Assembly: GCA_030655145.1 (NCBI GenBank)
Contig: JAURWD010000101.1
Location: 1 to 48,377, forward strand
Length of the DNA stretch: 48,377 nt
Source of the DNA: Ferruginibacter sp.
GTDB lineage: Bacteria; Bacteroidota; Bacteroidia; Chitinophagales; Chitinophagaceae
Reading direction: 5' to 3'
Below are positions 14,118 through 19,171 of the stretch, one piece after another. Both the position numbers and the translations under genes were made by a program. Below the pieces are notes generated by a model. That model worked only from the letters and a program-made list of their open reading frames with translations, was not told the DNA's origin and did not search any database. Numbering within the stretch: position 1 is the first letter of the stretch; each line of letters begins with the position of its first letter.

Positions 14118-17063
14118 TTATTTGACTTTCGTTTTCCCAATGGCTTCGTAAATAGCCTCATGGATAGCAGGTCGTACATTCATTTTTCCCAATAAAGGGT
14201 TATCGCCCTTTGGCGAAACCCGGTTGCTAAGGAAAACATACACCAGGTTGGATTCAGGATCTGCCCAGGTGCAAGTGCCGGTAAAACCGGTGTGACCAAA
14301 ACTTTTAGGGGAGGCAGAAAAAGTAGGATAGGCTTCGGGCCGGGTAGCATTATCTTTCTCCGGTTTATCAAATCCCAATCCACGTCGGCTGATCTTACTA
14401 TGATACGCTGTAAACAGATCGATCGTCTCTTTGCGCAGGTATTGTTTGCCATTAAACTTTCCTTCATTTAACAGCAGTTGCATTACGATAGCAATATCGT
14501 AAGCTGTGCTGAATAATCCGGCATGCCCGGCCACTCCACCAAACATTGCGGCGCCCGGATCATGCACATCACCCCGCACCAGTTGTAAGCGAAACAGCGG
14601 TTCCCGCTCTGTCGGCACTATGCGGCCGATGGGTAGGCGCTCCCTTGGTTTGAAGCCGGCGGCGCTCAGACCTAAGGGAACATAAAATTCCTTCCTTACA
14701 TATTCATTTAAGGAAAGACCTGTGATTGCTTCAACAATTTTTCCCAGGAAGATGAAATCATTATCACTGTAAACATACTTGTTGTTTGCGCTTAAGGGAC
14801 TTTGTAAAATGCGCCGGTACATGGTATCATTCCAATCGTTGCGCAGGTACAAATTCTCAGCCACCCTTACTTTAAACGAGTCGCTGGGCTGCGTAGCAAA
14901 ATATTTCGTATAGGGCTTGCCGTTACTATCGATCGCTTCTTTATAAAATGGAATGTAGGGAACCAGTCCTGCCTGGTGCAATAAGATATCTTCAATCTGT
15001 AAAGATGCTTTGTTTGTTCCTTTCACCCAAGGCAGGTATTCTCCCAGGGTCTTTTTGAGATCCAGTTTACCCTGCTCATATAATTTCATGACTGAAATGG
15101 TGGTTGCGCAAATTTTCGTCACGGAAGCCATGTCGTATACAGATTCTAAATTGACCTGCTCTGCCCCGCCAAAGGAGTATTGTCCATAAGCTTTATTAAA
15201 GAGAATGGAGCCATCTTTTACCACCAGCACTACGCAACCCGGCGTTGCCCCTTTCTCAATGGCGTCGGTAGCAATAGAGTCGATGCGGCTGAAGGCGACG
15301 GCTTGTCTTTTTGTCTCTGGATCTTGTGATAAAGCGGTTGAAACCATGCCCGACCCAAAAGGAAATACCTCGCAAACGGTAACGGGTAATCGCCCTTTAG
15401 CAGCGATCTTACCTTGTAAAAGATCCACCGCCGTATTGTGGATAATACTGTTATCTTCATAACACGCTACCAGGTTTTTGGCACTGCAGAAATTCTTGAT
15501 CGCATACGGGTTTCCAAAAACAAGCACCGTCGCGTTGGGTTGCTCCTGTAATTGATTTACGAGGTCGATGGCGTTTTTACTTAGACCAAAATTGTTGGCA
15601 GGTGTTCTGTTGTATCCGTGTACACCAACAATCACTTTTTTGTACCGCTGCCGGATCAACTCCAGGGTTGGTGCAACCCTGAGAGAATCTTGTTTGTAAT
15701 CAAAAAAGAAAACATCTGCATTGTAGTCAGCCTTTAACCTGGTTGCAAGTCCATTGTCGGCACTGATGCCGATACCCACATAAACTACTTCGTTTGCCGC
15801 GGTTGTCTTTGCAGCTGGCAGCAGGAATTCGCCGTCAGTGCCTTTGTGCAGTACCGTTAGTGCATGCTCAGCGATCAAGCGGCGCATTGCAGGCACCTCG
15901 CTATTTAAGTCTGCTGTTAAGTTTACGGTGTTAATAGGTTTCAAAGCGGTAAGGCCATATTGATATTTTGCTTGCAGCACCTTGCGGCAGTGTTGCTCAA
16001 TTTGCTGCCAGCTGAGCCTGTTATCAGCAATAGCCGCTTTAATTTCCTGGATGGCCAATGGTACATCTCCCGGCAAACACAACATATCATTTCCCGCGAT
16101 CAATGATTCTACGGAAGCGGCCCCGTTGGGAAAATATTTCTGAACACCCTGCATTTCCAGGGCATCGGTAAAAGTGAGTCCCTGGTAACCCAATTGGTCT
16201 CGCATCAATCCGGTCACATTGTTTTTAGAAATAGAGGTAGCACGGTTCTCCGATTTGTCGATAGCAGGAATGTAAAGATGGGCGATCATCGCACTTCCAA
16301 TGCCGGCCTTGAACAACTGCCGGAAAGGATACAGTTCTAGAGAGTCGAGCTGTGCCATCGTTTTGTTGATCACAGGCAGATCGTGATGCGAATCCACGGC
16401 CACATCTCCATGTCCAGGAAAGTGCTTGGCACAGGCCATCACGCCAAGATCCTGCATGCCCCTCATGTACTGGGTTCCAAACAGGGCGACCTTATATTTG
16501 TCTTCTCCAAAACTACGATCATTGATCACGGGATTATTTGGGTTGTTGTTGATATCTACAACCGGGGCATAATTAACCTGGATCCCAATTCGTTTACACT
16601 GCTCAGCAACTACTTGTCCGTACCGATACGGGATGCTTACATCTGAAACCGCACCTAACATCATCTGGTGAGGCAGCGGCAATACGCTGTCGATCATGCG
16701 CATACCCACACCCCACTCGGCATCGATGCACATCAGGATGGGCGTTTTTGCATGCGACTGCAAACGATTCAATATTTCTGCCTGCTTAACCGGGCTGCCC
16801 TGGAACAAACAAATTCCCCCAATGTTGTACTGCTTTACCAGGCTGTCTACTTTTTCATCATAGAAGATGGCCACCTTGTTTTTAAAGTCATAAGCGGATA
16901 AGCGCACCACCATCAGTTGTGCAATTTGTTCATCCTGCGAAAGGGTTTTGAACACACTGTCAGCCCATAGCTTTCCTGCACGATCGCGGGAAGCGGTAGT
17001 TTGGGCGGGAGCGACGAAGTTTATAAAAATCAGGAGACAGGAGGCAAGGCAAATTTTCAGCAT
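14118..17063 (-). CDS. GH3 (NagZ-like) glycosidase fused to serine beta-lactamase-type hydrolase
   Basis: 981 residues from the ATG at 17063, with signal peptide MLKICLASCLLIFINFVAPAQ. An upstream TTG at 17084 would add seven residues and spoil it. The N-terminal GH3 domain (about 30-375) has KHFPGHGDVAVDSHHDLPV, the loop with the Asp-His dyad of NagZ, and FTDALEM with the nucleophile Asp. A GH3 C-terminal-like domain follows (about 400-590). The last 370 residues form a class C beta-lactamase-like domain: SVTK (SxxK), YSDND and GHTG. The family probably acts on cell-wall muropeptides in the periplasm, the glycosidase cutting GlcNAc from anhydroMurNAc; the second activity is unknown. No adjacent partner gene. 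Confidence 0.9.
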   Translation of the reverse strand: MLKICLASCLLIFINFVAPAQTTASRDRAGKLWADSVFKTLSQDEQIAQLMVVRLSAYDFKNKVAIFYDEKVDSLVKQYNIGGICLFQGSPVKQAEILNRLQSHAKTPILMCIDAEWGVGMRMIDSVLPLPHQMMLGAVSDVSIPYRYGQVVAEQCKRIGIQVNYAPVVDINNNPNNPVINDRSFGEDKYKVALFGTQYMRGMQDLGVMACAKHFPGHGDVAVDSHHDLPVINKTMAQLDSLELYPFRQLFKAGIGSAMIAHLYIPAIDKSENRATSISKNNVTGLMRDQLGYQGLTFTDALEMQGVQKYFPNGAASVESLIAGNDMLCLPGDVPLAIQEIKAAIADNRLSWQQIEQHCRKVLQAKYQYGLTALKPINTVNLTADLNSEVPAMRRLIAEHALTVLHKGTDGEFLLPAAKTTAANEVVYVGIGISADNGLATRLKADYNADVFFFDYKQDSLRVAPTLELIRQRYKKVIVGVHGYNRTPANNFGLSKNAIDLVNQLQEQPNATVLVFGNPYAIKNFCSAKNLVACYEDNSIIHNTAVDLLQGKIAAKGRLPVTVCEVFPFGSGMVSTALSQDPETKRQAVAFSRIDSIATDAIEKGATPGCVVLVVKDGSILFNKAYGQYSFGGAEQVNLESVYDMASVTKICATTISVMKLYEQGKLDLKKTLGEYLPWVKGTNKASLQIEDILLHQAGLVPYIPFYKEAIDSNGKPYTKYFATQPSDSFKVRVAENLYLRNDWNDTMYRRILQSPLSANNKYVYSDNDFIFLGKIVEAITGLSLNEYVRKEFYVPLGLSAAGFKPRERLPIGRIVPTEREPLFRLQLVRGDVHDPGAAMFGGVAGHAGLFSTAYDIAIVMQLLLNEGKFNGKQYLRKETIDLFTAYHSKISRRGLGFDKPEKDNATRPEAYPTFSASPKSFGHTGFTGTCTWADPESNLVYVFLSNRVSPKGDNPLLGKMNVRPAIHEAIYEAIGKTKVK

Positions 17064-17290
17064 ATGAGAAAGATGTAATCGCAAAATAGGAAGTTTTGTA
17101 GAGTTAACCCTTTAAATGCCATCAAATTAACGAATTGAAGGCGACGTGTCTGTGCTTCATCTTTGATCGTACCTGCTGGCTTTTAGGATAAGTATGCGCT
17201 ACCACACTTAATTATCACAACCCATTCTATTCGCGAACCAATGTTGAGGGAATGTTCGGAGATATTTAAATCAAGCCGTGTTTAACTACT

Positions 17291-17320: not shown

Positions 17321-19171
17321 TTGCCAGATATCATTCATTTATTGCCCGATAACATTGCTAACCAGATTGCAGCCGGTGAGGTGATCCAGCGCCCTGCGAG
17401 CGCCGTGAAAGAATTACTGGAAAACGCGGTAGATGCCGGTGCGACGGAGATCAAGTTGATTGTAAACGATGCGGGTAAATCCCTCATCCAGGTGATCGAC
17501 AATGGTAAGGGGATGAGTGACACCGATGCCCGGATGAGTTTTGAACGGCATGCTACTTCGAAGATTCAAAATATTGAGGATCTTTTCCATATCAAGACCA
17601 TGGGCTTCCGCGGCGAAGCGTTGGCAAGTATCGCTGCCGTGGCGCAGGTAGAACTAAAGTCGAAGAGAGAGAATGAAACTGTTGGCACCTGCATCGAGAT
17701 CGACAACAGCGTAGTGCGCAAACAGGAAGCAGTTGCCATGCAACAGGGAACCAGCATCGCGATGAAAAATCTTTTTTTCAATGTTCCTGCCCGGCGCAAT
17801 TTTTTAAAGAGTAATCCTTCGGAACTCCGTCATATTGTTGATGAGTTTATCCGTGTTGCCATGTCGTTCCCGGATATTTTCTTTTCGCTTACCAGCAACG
17901 GCCAACAAGTCTTTCACCTGGAAAGGGGAACCCTGAAGCAACGCATTGTTCAAATACTCGGGAATAGTTATAACGCCCGGTTGGTAAGTGTACAGGAGAA
18001 TACCGATTACATGAATATTTACGGGTTTGTCGGGAAGCCCGAAACAGCGAAGAAAACCCGCGGTGACCAATACTTTTTTGTCAATAATCGCTTCATCAAA
18101 AGTGCGTACCTGAATCATGCGGTAATGGGGGCTTTCGATGAAATGATCGGCCGCGATAGCTTCCCAATGTATGCCCTCTTTATTGACCTCGACCCGGCAC
18201 AGGTCGACATCAATGTTCATCCCACGAAACAGGAAATTAAGTTTGAAGACGAGAAGATCGTCTACGCCTTTGTACAAAGTGCAGTGAAACATAGTCTCGC
18301 TCAATTCAGCATTACACCAACCCTGGATTTTGAACTGGATTCGTCTATCCAGAATCTTGATGCAGTCACTAAACCTTTTACGGAAGAGCGCAAGACCTCG
18401 GTCGCTTCCTCTTCCTTGTACAATACTTTTTCACAAAAGCACCAGGCACATTTTATCGAGAATCGCAGTGAGTTAAAGCACTGGAAAGATTTTTATGAGC
18501 CGGCACGTCCCCAGGGGGGTTCAAATGAAGGCAACCAGCAACAAAGCCTGCGTGCGCAGGATTTTTCTTTGCCCGACCATACCGTTCTCCACCATGCACC
18601 TTTTTCGGTGAGCGACATTGCGCAGTTGCACAACACGTACCTCGTCGTGCAAAATGATGCGGGCTTTATAGTTATTCACCAGCAGAATGCTCATGAGCGG
18701 GTATTGTATGAACGCTTTATGAAGGCATTGGATGGTAAACCGATCGCAACCCAACAAAGTCTCTTCCCGCTTACAATTGAACTGGCTCCCACAGATGTAG
18801 TGGTGTTGAATGAATTACTTGGCGACCTGAACTATTTAGGATATCACCTGGAGCCCTTCGGGAAAAATACCTTCGTCATCCAGGGAACACCCGCCGATGT
18901 AGACCAGGGCAGTGAAAAAACAGCGCTCGAAAAAATGCTGGAACAATACAAACATTTCAGCAGCGATTTAAAATATTCCAAACGCGAAAAATTACTTCGC
19001 TCACTTGCCTGGCAACAAGCGATCAAGGCCGGTAAAGCACTTACTCAAAAAGAAATGAAATCGTTGGTAGAAGAGTTGTTCATGTGCACCTCACCCAACA
19101 TCACTCCGAATGGTAAGCCCACCTATTCGGCTTTCAAGAAAACAGAGTTGGATAAATTGTTTGGGAGGTAA
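17321..19171 (+). CDS. mutL: DNA mismatch repair protein MutL, endonuclease motifs altered
   Basis: 616 residues starting at TTG, supported by AGGAG five bases upstream and by the canonical N-terminus (IIHLLPDNIANQIAAGEV). The GHKL ATPase half is intact: E34, N35 and D38 in LLENAVDAGA, DNGKGM, TMGFRGEALASIA, and GTSIAMKNLFFNVPARRNF. The C-terminal dimerisation domain is present but its nuclease motifs are changed: DQHAxxE reads HQQNAHE (453-459), the ACR-type Cys is Trp564, and CPHGRP reads TPNGKP (595-600). MutL couples MutS mismatch recognition to strand removal. Its stop codon directly touches that of convergent dacB. Confidence 0.95.
   Translation: MPDIIHLLPDNIANQIAAGEVIQRPASAVKELLENAVDAGATEIKLIVNDAGKSLIQVIDNGKGMSDTDARMSFERHATSKIQNIEDLFHIKTMGFRGEALASIAAVAQVELKSKRENETVGTCIEIDNSVVRKQEAVAMQQGTSIAMKNLFFNVPARRNFLKSNPSELRHIVDEFIRVAMSFPDIFFSLTSNGQQVFHLERGTLKQRIVQILGNSYNARLVSVQENTDYMNIYGFVGKPETAKKTRGDQYFFVNNRFIKSAYLNHAVMGAFDEMIGRDSFPMYALFIDLDPAQVDINVHPTKQEIKFEDEKIVYAFVQSAVKHSLAQFSITPTLDFELDSSIQNLDAVTKPFTEERKTSVASSSLYNTFSQKHQAHFIENRSELKHWKDFYEPARPQGGSNEGNQQQSLRAQDFSLPDHTVLHHAPFSVSDIAQLHNTYLVVQNDAGFIVIHQQNAHERVLYERFMKALDGKPIATQQSLFPLTIELAPTDVVVLNELLGDLNYLGYHLEPFGKNTFVIQGTPADVDQGSEKTALEKMLEQYKHFSSDLKYSKREKLLRSLAWQQAIKAGKALTQKEMKSLVEELFMCTSPNITPNGKPTYSAFKKTELDKLFGR

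Follow-up and report, generated by a model that had tools for sequence, protein, structure and literature searches.

The mutL locus

The window, a 48,377-nucleotide stretch of a Ferruginibacter contig, contains a mutL gene with the following features.

17321..19171, forward strand: mutL, 616 residues, TTG start (open reading frame; Pfam DNA_mis_repair, HATPase_c_3 and MutL_C; NCBIfam TIGR00585, 524 bits)
17333..18319, forward strand: N-terminal ATPase half, residues 5-333, canonical (phmmer match to MutL chain 5akb; pN/pS)
18617..19042, forward strand: MutL_C dimerisation/endonuclease domain, residues 433-574 (PF08676, 4.5e-32; AlphaFold model)
18677..18697, forward strand: motif II HQQNAHE, residues 453-459, replacing DQHAxxE (alignment)
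18752..18769, forward strand: beta-clamp binding motif QQSLFP, residues 478-483, kept (opposite B. subtilis QEMIVP)
19010..19012, forward strand: Trp564, replacing the motif IV Cys (alignment)
19085..19087, forward strand: Cys589, enriched among degenerate class proteins (column counts)
19103..19120, forward strand: motif V TPNGKP, residues 595-600, replacing CPHGRP, with the catalytic Arg changed to Lys599 (alignment)

The protein joins GHKL ATPase and MutL_C domains in a single chain (Pfam PF13589, PF01119 and PF08676, in this order) and scores 524 bits against TIGR00585, for which the cut-off is 180. Residues 5-333 match MutL chain 5akb, which, like 1x9z used below, we take to be E. coli MutL, with an E-value of 1.2e-69 (phmmer), in agreement with an earlier note on this DNA that described the ATPase half as canonical. 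The C-terminal domain contains the beta-clamp motif QxhLxP, in the form QQSLFP. The divergent neighbour of mutL (14118-17084, reverse strand) encodes a fusion of a glycosyl hydrolase family 3 domain with a beta-lactamase-family domain, and members of its family are also found near mutL at 6 of 20 loci surveyed in the class Bacteroidia.

Substitutions in the metal-site motifs

Residues 433-616 of the window MutL align end to end with the C-terminal domain of Bacillus subtilis MutL (3gab, E 1.4e-23, phmmer), and Neisseria gonorrhoeae MutL (3ncv) aligned nearly as far (E 1.9e-12). In the alignment to 3gab, the paired sequences (window MutL first, B. subtilis second) are HQQNAHERVLYE and DQHAAQERIKYE for motif II, LAWQQAIKA and MSCKGSIKA for motif IV, and TPNGKP and CPHGRP for motif V. 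There is no gap within any of the three motifs, which lie opposite DQHAAQE, MSCKGS and CPHGRP. A frame error, a sequencing error or a misalignment is ruled out by this gap-free alignment together with the agreement of relatives. The positions that the earlier note had given for HQQNAHE (453-459), Trp564 and TPNGKP (595-600) are correct and in frame with the mutL reading frame.

According to the available text of PMC2965676, B. subtilis MutL binds zinc through E468, H464, C573, C604 and H606, which correspond in the alignment to E459, Q455, W564, T595 and N597 of the window MutL. Four of the five published ligands are thus replaced, and Glu459 is the only one kept, just as the note had claimed. 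The motif II Asp that is required for activity is His453, and Glu464, the last Glu of motif II, is kept. The Arg of motif V CPHGRP, catalytic according to the available part of PMC10366529, is Lys599. The same source reports that the Arg-to-Lys mutant failed to complement in Thermus thermophilus, and that Aquifex aeolicus R406K, with all other ligands present, had weaker but significant in vitro activity. None of the motifs by which MutL endonucleases are recognised (DQHAX2EX4E, ACR and CPHGRP) was found in the aligned window MutL. TIGR00585 names the protein ‘DNA mismatch repair endonuclease MutL’ despite the missing endonuclease motifs, which suggests that, for this protein, the automatic name overstates the function.

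A shifted metal site was also looked for in the degenerate proteins. The set of His and Cys ligands was nowhere re-formed, and the sole enriched Cys was Cys589, located six residues N-terminal to the position of the lost motif V Cys. The loss of the nicking site inferred in the earlier note is therefore supported in that the ligands are gone, and the window MutL is very probably devoid of nuclease activity, judging from its sequence.

Predicted structure of the C-terminal domain

An AlphaFold model of residues 425-616, built with 11 aligned sequences, has a mean pLDDT of 77; its quality is modest, as the other four models had values of 49-59. Motif II begins a helix at residue 454 in this model. 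The PDB matches at ranks 1-36 were MutL homologues, chains of mismatch repair complexes or clamp-MutL constructs, with TM-scores of 0.75 for 3ncv, about 0.62 for 1x9z and, by query length, up to 0.60 for B. subtilis MutL. The C-terminal fold of MutL is kept in the predicted structure.

Extent of the loss in Bacteroidota

Motifs were read in 199 MutL sequences and in 20 more. The survey of the class, taken to be Bacteroidia from kinship labels and the Ferruginibacter match, and of the family Chitinophagaceae was made with the PF08676 profile, which has a MutL_C match in 117 of 119 class genomes. These 117 genomes contribute 112 sequences outside the family and 4 family sequences, and one protein missed by the seed profile (L181) was viewed by eye. 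The family count covers 57 of 58 matches, with one partial match (G436) left out. Among the 112 class sequences outside the family, none of the four His/Cys ligands is present in 92 (including L167, whose sequence stops short of motifs IV and V), only the motif II His is present in 17, and all four are present in 3. These three (L032, L034 and L038) belong to a single family, f84. The motif II Asp is kept in 87 of the 112. In the family, 55 of 57 sequences have no His/Cys ligand and the other two retain the motif II His; the position of the motif II Asp is occupied by His in 45, Asn in 6 and Asp in 4, and residue 564 is Arg in 31, Trp in 12, Lys in 9 and another residue in 5.

Fifty sequences from other classes of the phylum had four ligands in 38 cases, one in 4 and none in 8, counts that give no estimate of frequency because the sequences were not a random sample (30 best-scoring, and 20 chosen largely from families new to the sample). 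The nearest named relatives, most of them labelled Ferruginibacter, a genus of Chitinophagaceae, have 79-83% protein identity to the window MutL, so that the source is a Ferruginibacter-like member of this family. Motif II is [H/N/Q]QQxxHE in all 80 named relatives kept, a count that is biased because the six search patterns behind this set included IHQQNAHE; residue 564 in this set is Trp in 30, Leu in 30, Ile in 11, Lys in 5 and another residue in 4. The unbiased evidence for a shared loss is the class and family survey with the PF08676 profile. The alignment across Chitinophagaceae and other Bacteroidota, which the earlier note had proposed as a check, indicates that the loss is near-general in the sampled class and has parallels elsewhere in the phylum.

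History of the loss

Trees were built from the N-terminal halves, so that the metal motifs were left out. A FastTree of 173 N-terminal parts needs four changes between canonical and degenerate states, two of them forced by starred branches. It places 111 degenerate class sequences in one group and nine others outside it (L144, L180 and a group of seven), on long or unresolved branches. A more careful tree was made from 52 picked sequences, including 22 degenerate class sequences and none of the nine outliers. The 22 form one clade (99/94), the canonical family f84 is sister to them (100/98), a second degenerate group adjoins the canonical family f18 (100/97), and a third degenerate pair that keeps the motif II His (L224 and L225) sits elsewhere on a long stem, giving three changes of state.

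An AU test rejected the hypothesis that all degenerate proteins of the phylum go back to one loss (p 4.8e-6); its groups were set by motif state and include long branches. The sequences are most simply read as a single loss on the Bacteroidia stem once f84 had split off, with further losses in other lineages of the phylum; as the careful tree lacks the nine outlying sequences, a single loss across the class can only be called the simplest reading. A canonical gene regained by transfer in f84 is conceivable, though the 52-sequence tree showed no sign of it. We note that f84, with a full canonical site beside degenerate sisters, is a natural control for comparison.

Constraint on the degenerate protein

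The four lost-ligand columns have entropy ranks of 61-124 among 193 columns in 160 degenerate sequences, and they are invariant in 25 canonical ones. In the same 160 sequences the clamp-motif columns Q478, L481, F482 and P483 have ranks 3-9. The clamp motif has the form Q..L.P in 104 of 112 class sequences, and in the family it is Q..L.P in 50 of 57 and Q..M.P in the remaining 7. Among 165 degenerate sequences, E459 is kept in 142 and E464 in 150, and R460 is conserved too. The position of Arg608 is Arg in 19 and replaced in 146, and Asp, Glu and Arg are retained jointly in only 9. Cys589 is found in 151 of the 165, compared with 14 of 41 canonical sequences.

Comparison with eight near relatives, out of 80, gave the lowest pN/pS values in motif II (0.03-0.08) and the ATPase half (0.05-0.08), higher ones in the C-terminal domain (0.13-0.19) and the highest in the linker (0.24-0.41). 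These are rough ratios of which only the order is meaningful because synonymous sites are saturated. From these comparisons, selection on mutL is purifying. The low pN/pS and the kept clamp motif indicate that the C-terminal domain is not decaying, and pseudogene decay of mutL is ruled out by the open frame, the purifying selection and the retained clamp motif. The former metal helix appears still to be used for something, since motif II is under a strong constraint that a merely dead site would not need.

Other repair components in the genome

The assembly to which the window belongs consists of 340 contigs and is listed as 100% complete. Substitutes for the lost activity were searched for with the profiles PF02976, PF02086, PF01939 and PF01713 only. 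The genome has one MutL_C match and no second MutL (PF08676, 340 contigs), and no match to MutH (PF02976), to Dam-type adenine methylases (PF02086) or to NucS (PF01939). The absence of MutH, which the earlier note had stated for the window, thus extends to the whole assembly in the profile search, and the wider check for a second MutL, MutH or Dam that it had suggested likewise found none. MutH-family matches occur in 0 of 60 family, 5 of 119 class and 4 of 296 phylum genomes. The matches of four of these nine genomes were examined (L062 of G389, L063 of G379, L064 of G334 and L373 of G279, with G397, G344, G057, G059 and G103 left out), and all four are Sau3AI-family restriction enzymes, one of which also resembles Sau3AI structures. 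MutH, without a PF02976 match here, is rejected as the substitute in this genome. PF02086 methylases are patchy, occurring in 52 of 119 class genomes.

The genome encodes a full-length MutS (G000:C303, 890 bits) with GDFYE, which contains the mismatch-binding FxE, GPNMSGKS and a C-terminal QLSIF. The last of these is similar to the clamp motifs that the available text of PMC8034640 gives for MutS of B. subtilis and of E. coli.

Of 119 class genomes, 101 have an Smr match (PF01713) and 18 have none. The sole Smr match in the genome studied here is a separate 343-residue open frame with VDLHI and IHGVGTGKLR. MutS2 of the same genome (L264:3267-5387, reverse strand, G000:C118, 707 residues, TIGR01069 600 bits) lacks an Smr match. 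Elsewhere in the class, 30 genomes have an Smr match inside an open frame of MutS2 size (784-856 residues).

No nuclease gene adjoins mutL among the window neighbours examined. Gene order was surveyed at 20 class loci (L227-L246), two of them in the family. Here mutL is followed by rhomboid-like genes, named by eye, in 15 of 20 loci and by a gene for a membrane endonuclease/exonuclease/phosphatase-family (EEP) protein in 10 of 20. The order mutL, rhomboid-like, rhomboid-like, membrane EEP-family protein is found at many class loci and not beside the window mutL.

Possible modes of repair

Of the readings considered, we favour one in which the window protein is a working matchmaker MutL that is tethered to the clamp and is not a nuclease, the only MutL found, with a site lost in the ancestor of nearly all sampled Bacteroidia and with excision starting from existing breaks. 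We hold this explanation, as a whole, to be about evenly poised between right and wrong. MutS would find the mismatch, and MutL would bind MutS and, through its kept clamp motif, the beta clamp, without cutting DNA itself. Strand choice and excision would then begin at pre-existing breaks in the new strand near the clamp, such as Okazaki ends or nicks from ribonucleotide removal. It is quite likely, from the retained sequence features, that the mismatch-repair function of this MutL continues. Given the rest of the explanation, the use of pre-existing breaks is somewhat favoured over a further nuclease. Mismatch repair is known to be able to use existing strand breaks. Such breaks are sparse on the leading strand, which counts against a start of this kind. 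In a Caulobacter crescentus study, the authors suggest, as speculation, that the new strand is marked by where the clamp sits or by ribonucleotide nicks (PMC8034640, available part). The weaker activity of the A. aeolicus mutant with Lys at the catalytic Arg position (PMC10366529) also counts against the explanation, as does the conservation of motif II, E459, E464 and R460, which simple loss would not explain.

This conservation is what a docking surface might require, and a nuclease-dead MutL could recruit a separate nicking enzyme, as E. coli MutL does with MutH. We consider this possible but rather unlikely, and it follows close behind the reading based on existing breaks; the two proposals of an altered active site and of a role outside repair are less likely. 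In proteobacteria, the MutL nuclease degenerated alongside the recruitment of MutH (PMC2292703, available part). The wide occurrence of Smr in the class, and its presence here as a separate frame beside a MutS2 without Smr, make stand-alone Smr one candidate for such a partner. However, stand-alone Smr also occurs in two f84 genomes with canonical MutL (L362 and L363), and we therefore regard it as a candidate and not as the answer; the 18 class genomes without a match argue against it as well, and the lack of a nuclease gene among the examined neighbours of the window mutL argues against a partner in general. A divergent partner nuclease may escape profile searches. A more specific proposal is that the membrane EEP protein supplies the nick, since its gene comes after mutL at half of the surveyed class loci and it has homologues in the genome studied here (Pfam PF03372). 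The protein begins, however, with hydrophobic, membrane-type segments, and in one of three copies scanned, three segments and a positive loop would place the domain in the periplasm, while the other two copies showed two regions and no clear side. Moreover, the copies in this genome lie on other contigs (one beside a rhomboid-like gene), and the protein resembles VanJ very weakly (E 9e-4). With the topology scan clear in one of three copies, we judge this partner very unlikely.

The site might instead still nick DNA through other ligands, namely Asp/His453, Glu459, Glu464 and Cys589, the last three of which are kept in most degenerate sequences. N. gonorrhoeae MutL depends on Mg or Mn, activity persists in a T. 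thermophilus mutant with motif V Cys changed to Ala (PMC2965676, available text), and A. aeolicus R406K is weakly active in vitro (PMC10366529). We find such an altered site improbable, as the first motif II position varies among Asp, His, Asn, Gln and others, Arg608 is mostly replaced, the motif V Cys/His positions drift among many residues, residue 564 is variable in the family, and no Cys or His besides Cys589 is newly enriched across the degenerate proteins. If MutL had moved from replication mismatch repair to another MutS-linked task, for example blocking recombination between diverged DNAs, no nick would be needed at all, and no mutator test of mutL or mutS in Bacteroides or Flavobacterium was found in titles and abstracts of the open-access papers listed. 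This seems a little less probable still, considering that the clamp motifs of MutS and MutL and the mismatch motif of MutS are kept and that nearly all class genomes have a MutL_C match.

More tentatively, and with rather less than even confidence, a third form of MutS-MutL repair may be proposed, in which Bacteroidia use neither of the two known types of dedicated nicking enzyme and the metal helix has become a conserved strand-choice surface of the type [D/H/N]QQxAHE. This surface might dock the clamp, an existing DNA end or another nuclease, and the MutL nuclease would have been lost once on the class stem and likewise in other lineages of the phylum.

Relation to known MutL proteins

The nicking MutL proteins of B. 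subtilis, N. gonorrhoeae and A. aeolicus have the same domain order, C-terminal fold and clamp motif as the window MutL, and those of B. subtilis and N. gonorrhoeae align with it over the whole C-terminal domain. What sets the window MutL apart from them is the replacement of four of five zinc ligands, of the motif II Asp and of the catalytic Arg. It resembles E. coli MutL in its close ATPase half, in having no metal motifs and in the structural match of the model to 1x9z. E. coli uses MutH and Dam, however, neither of which was found in this genome, and the motif II helix and motif V loop of the window MutL are of the B. subtilis type, whereas E. coli MutL has a shorter motif II helix and no motif V substructure (PMC2965676, available text). 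Human PMS1 is also a MutL homologue without the metal motif, according to the same source. Eukaryotic non-nuclease MutL subunits act beside other MutL homologues, whereas one MutL gene was found here. The proteobacterial loss described in PMC2292703 is a precedent, but it came with a replacement nuclease, MutH (available part).

The available text of PMC2734928 states that MutH is, with few exceptions, confined to Gammaproteobacteria. According to the same text, MutL homologues of archaea, eukaryotes and eubacteria share the metal motif, and those of organisms with MutH lack it. Reviews divide bacterial MutS-MutL repair into MutH systems and nicking-MutL systems (PMC2734928 and PMC12733681, available parts). 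The class Bacteroidia seems to fit neither scheme, and the loss is repeated in the phylum. The class includes major gut bacteria. A survey of conserved MutL motifs, reportedly published by Banasik and Sachadyn in 2014, may bear on the novelty of the loss. Among the matches listed in a search of open-access titles and abstracts, no report of loss of the MutL nuclease site in Bacteroidota was found, and the available parts of PMC12733681, PMC5290159, PMC3200294, PMC8744996 and PMC13256674 contain no statement on Bacteroidota MutL motifs. For the question of how cells without MutH tell the new strand from the old, sister lineages with canonical and altered MutL offer natural comparisons.

Other MutS-family proteins

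The genome studied here also encodes two proteins with MutS domain V and no match to MutS domain I.

L265:3446-5236, reverse strand: MutS domain V protein, 597 residues
L266:3480-4805, forward strand: MutS domain V protein, 442 residues

Some Chitinophagaceae genomes have many places that match mutS1, with 23 in G399 and 14 in G410.
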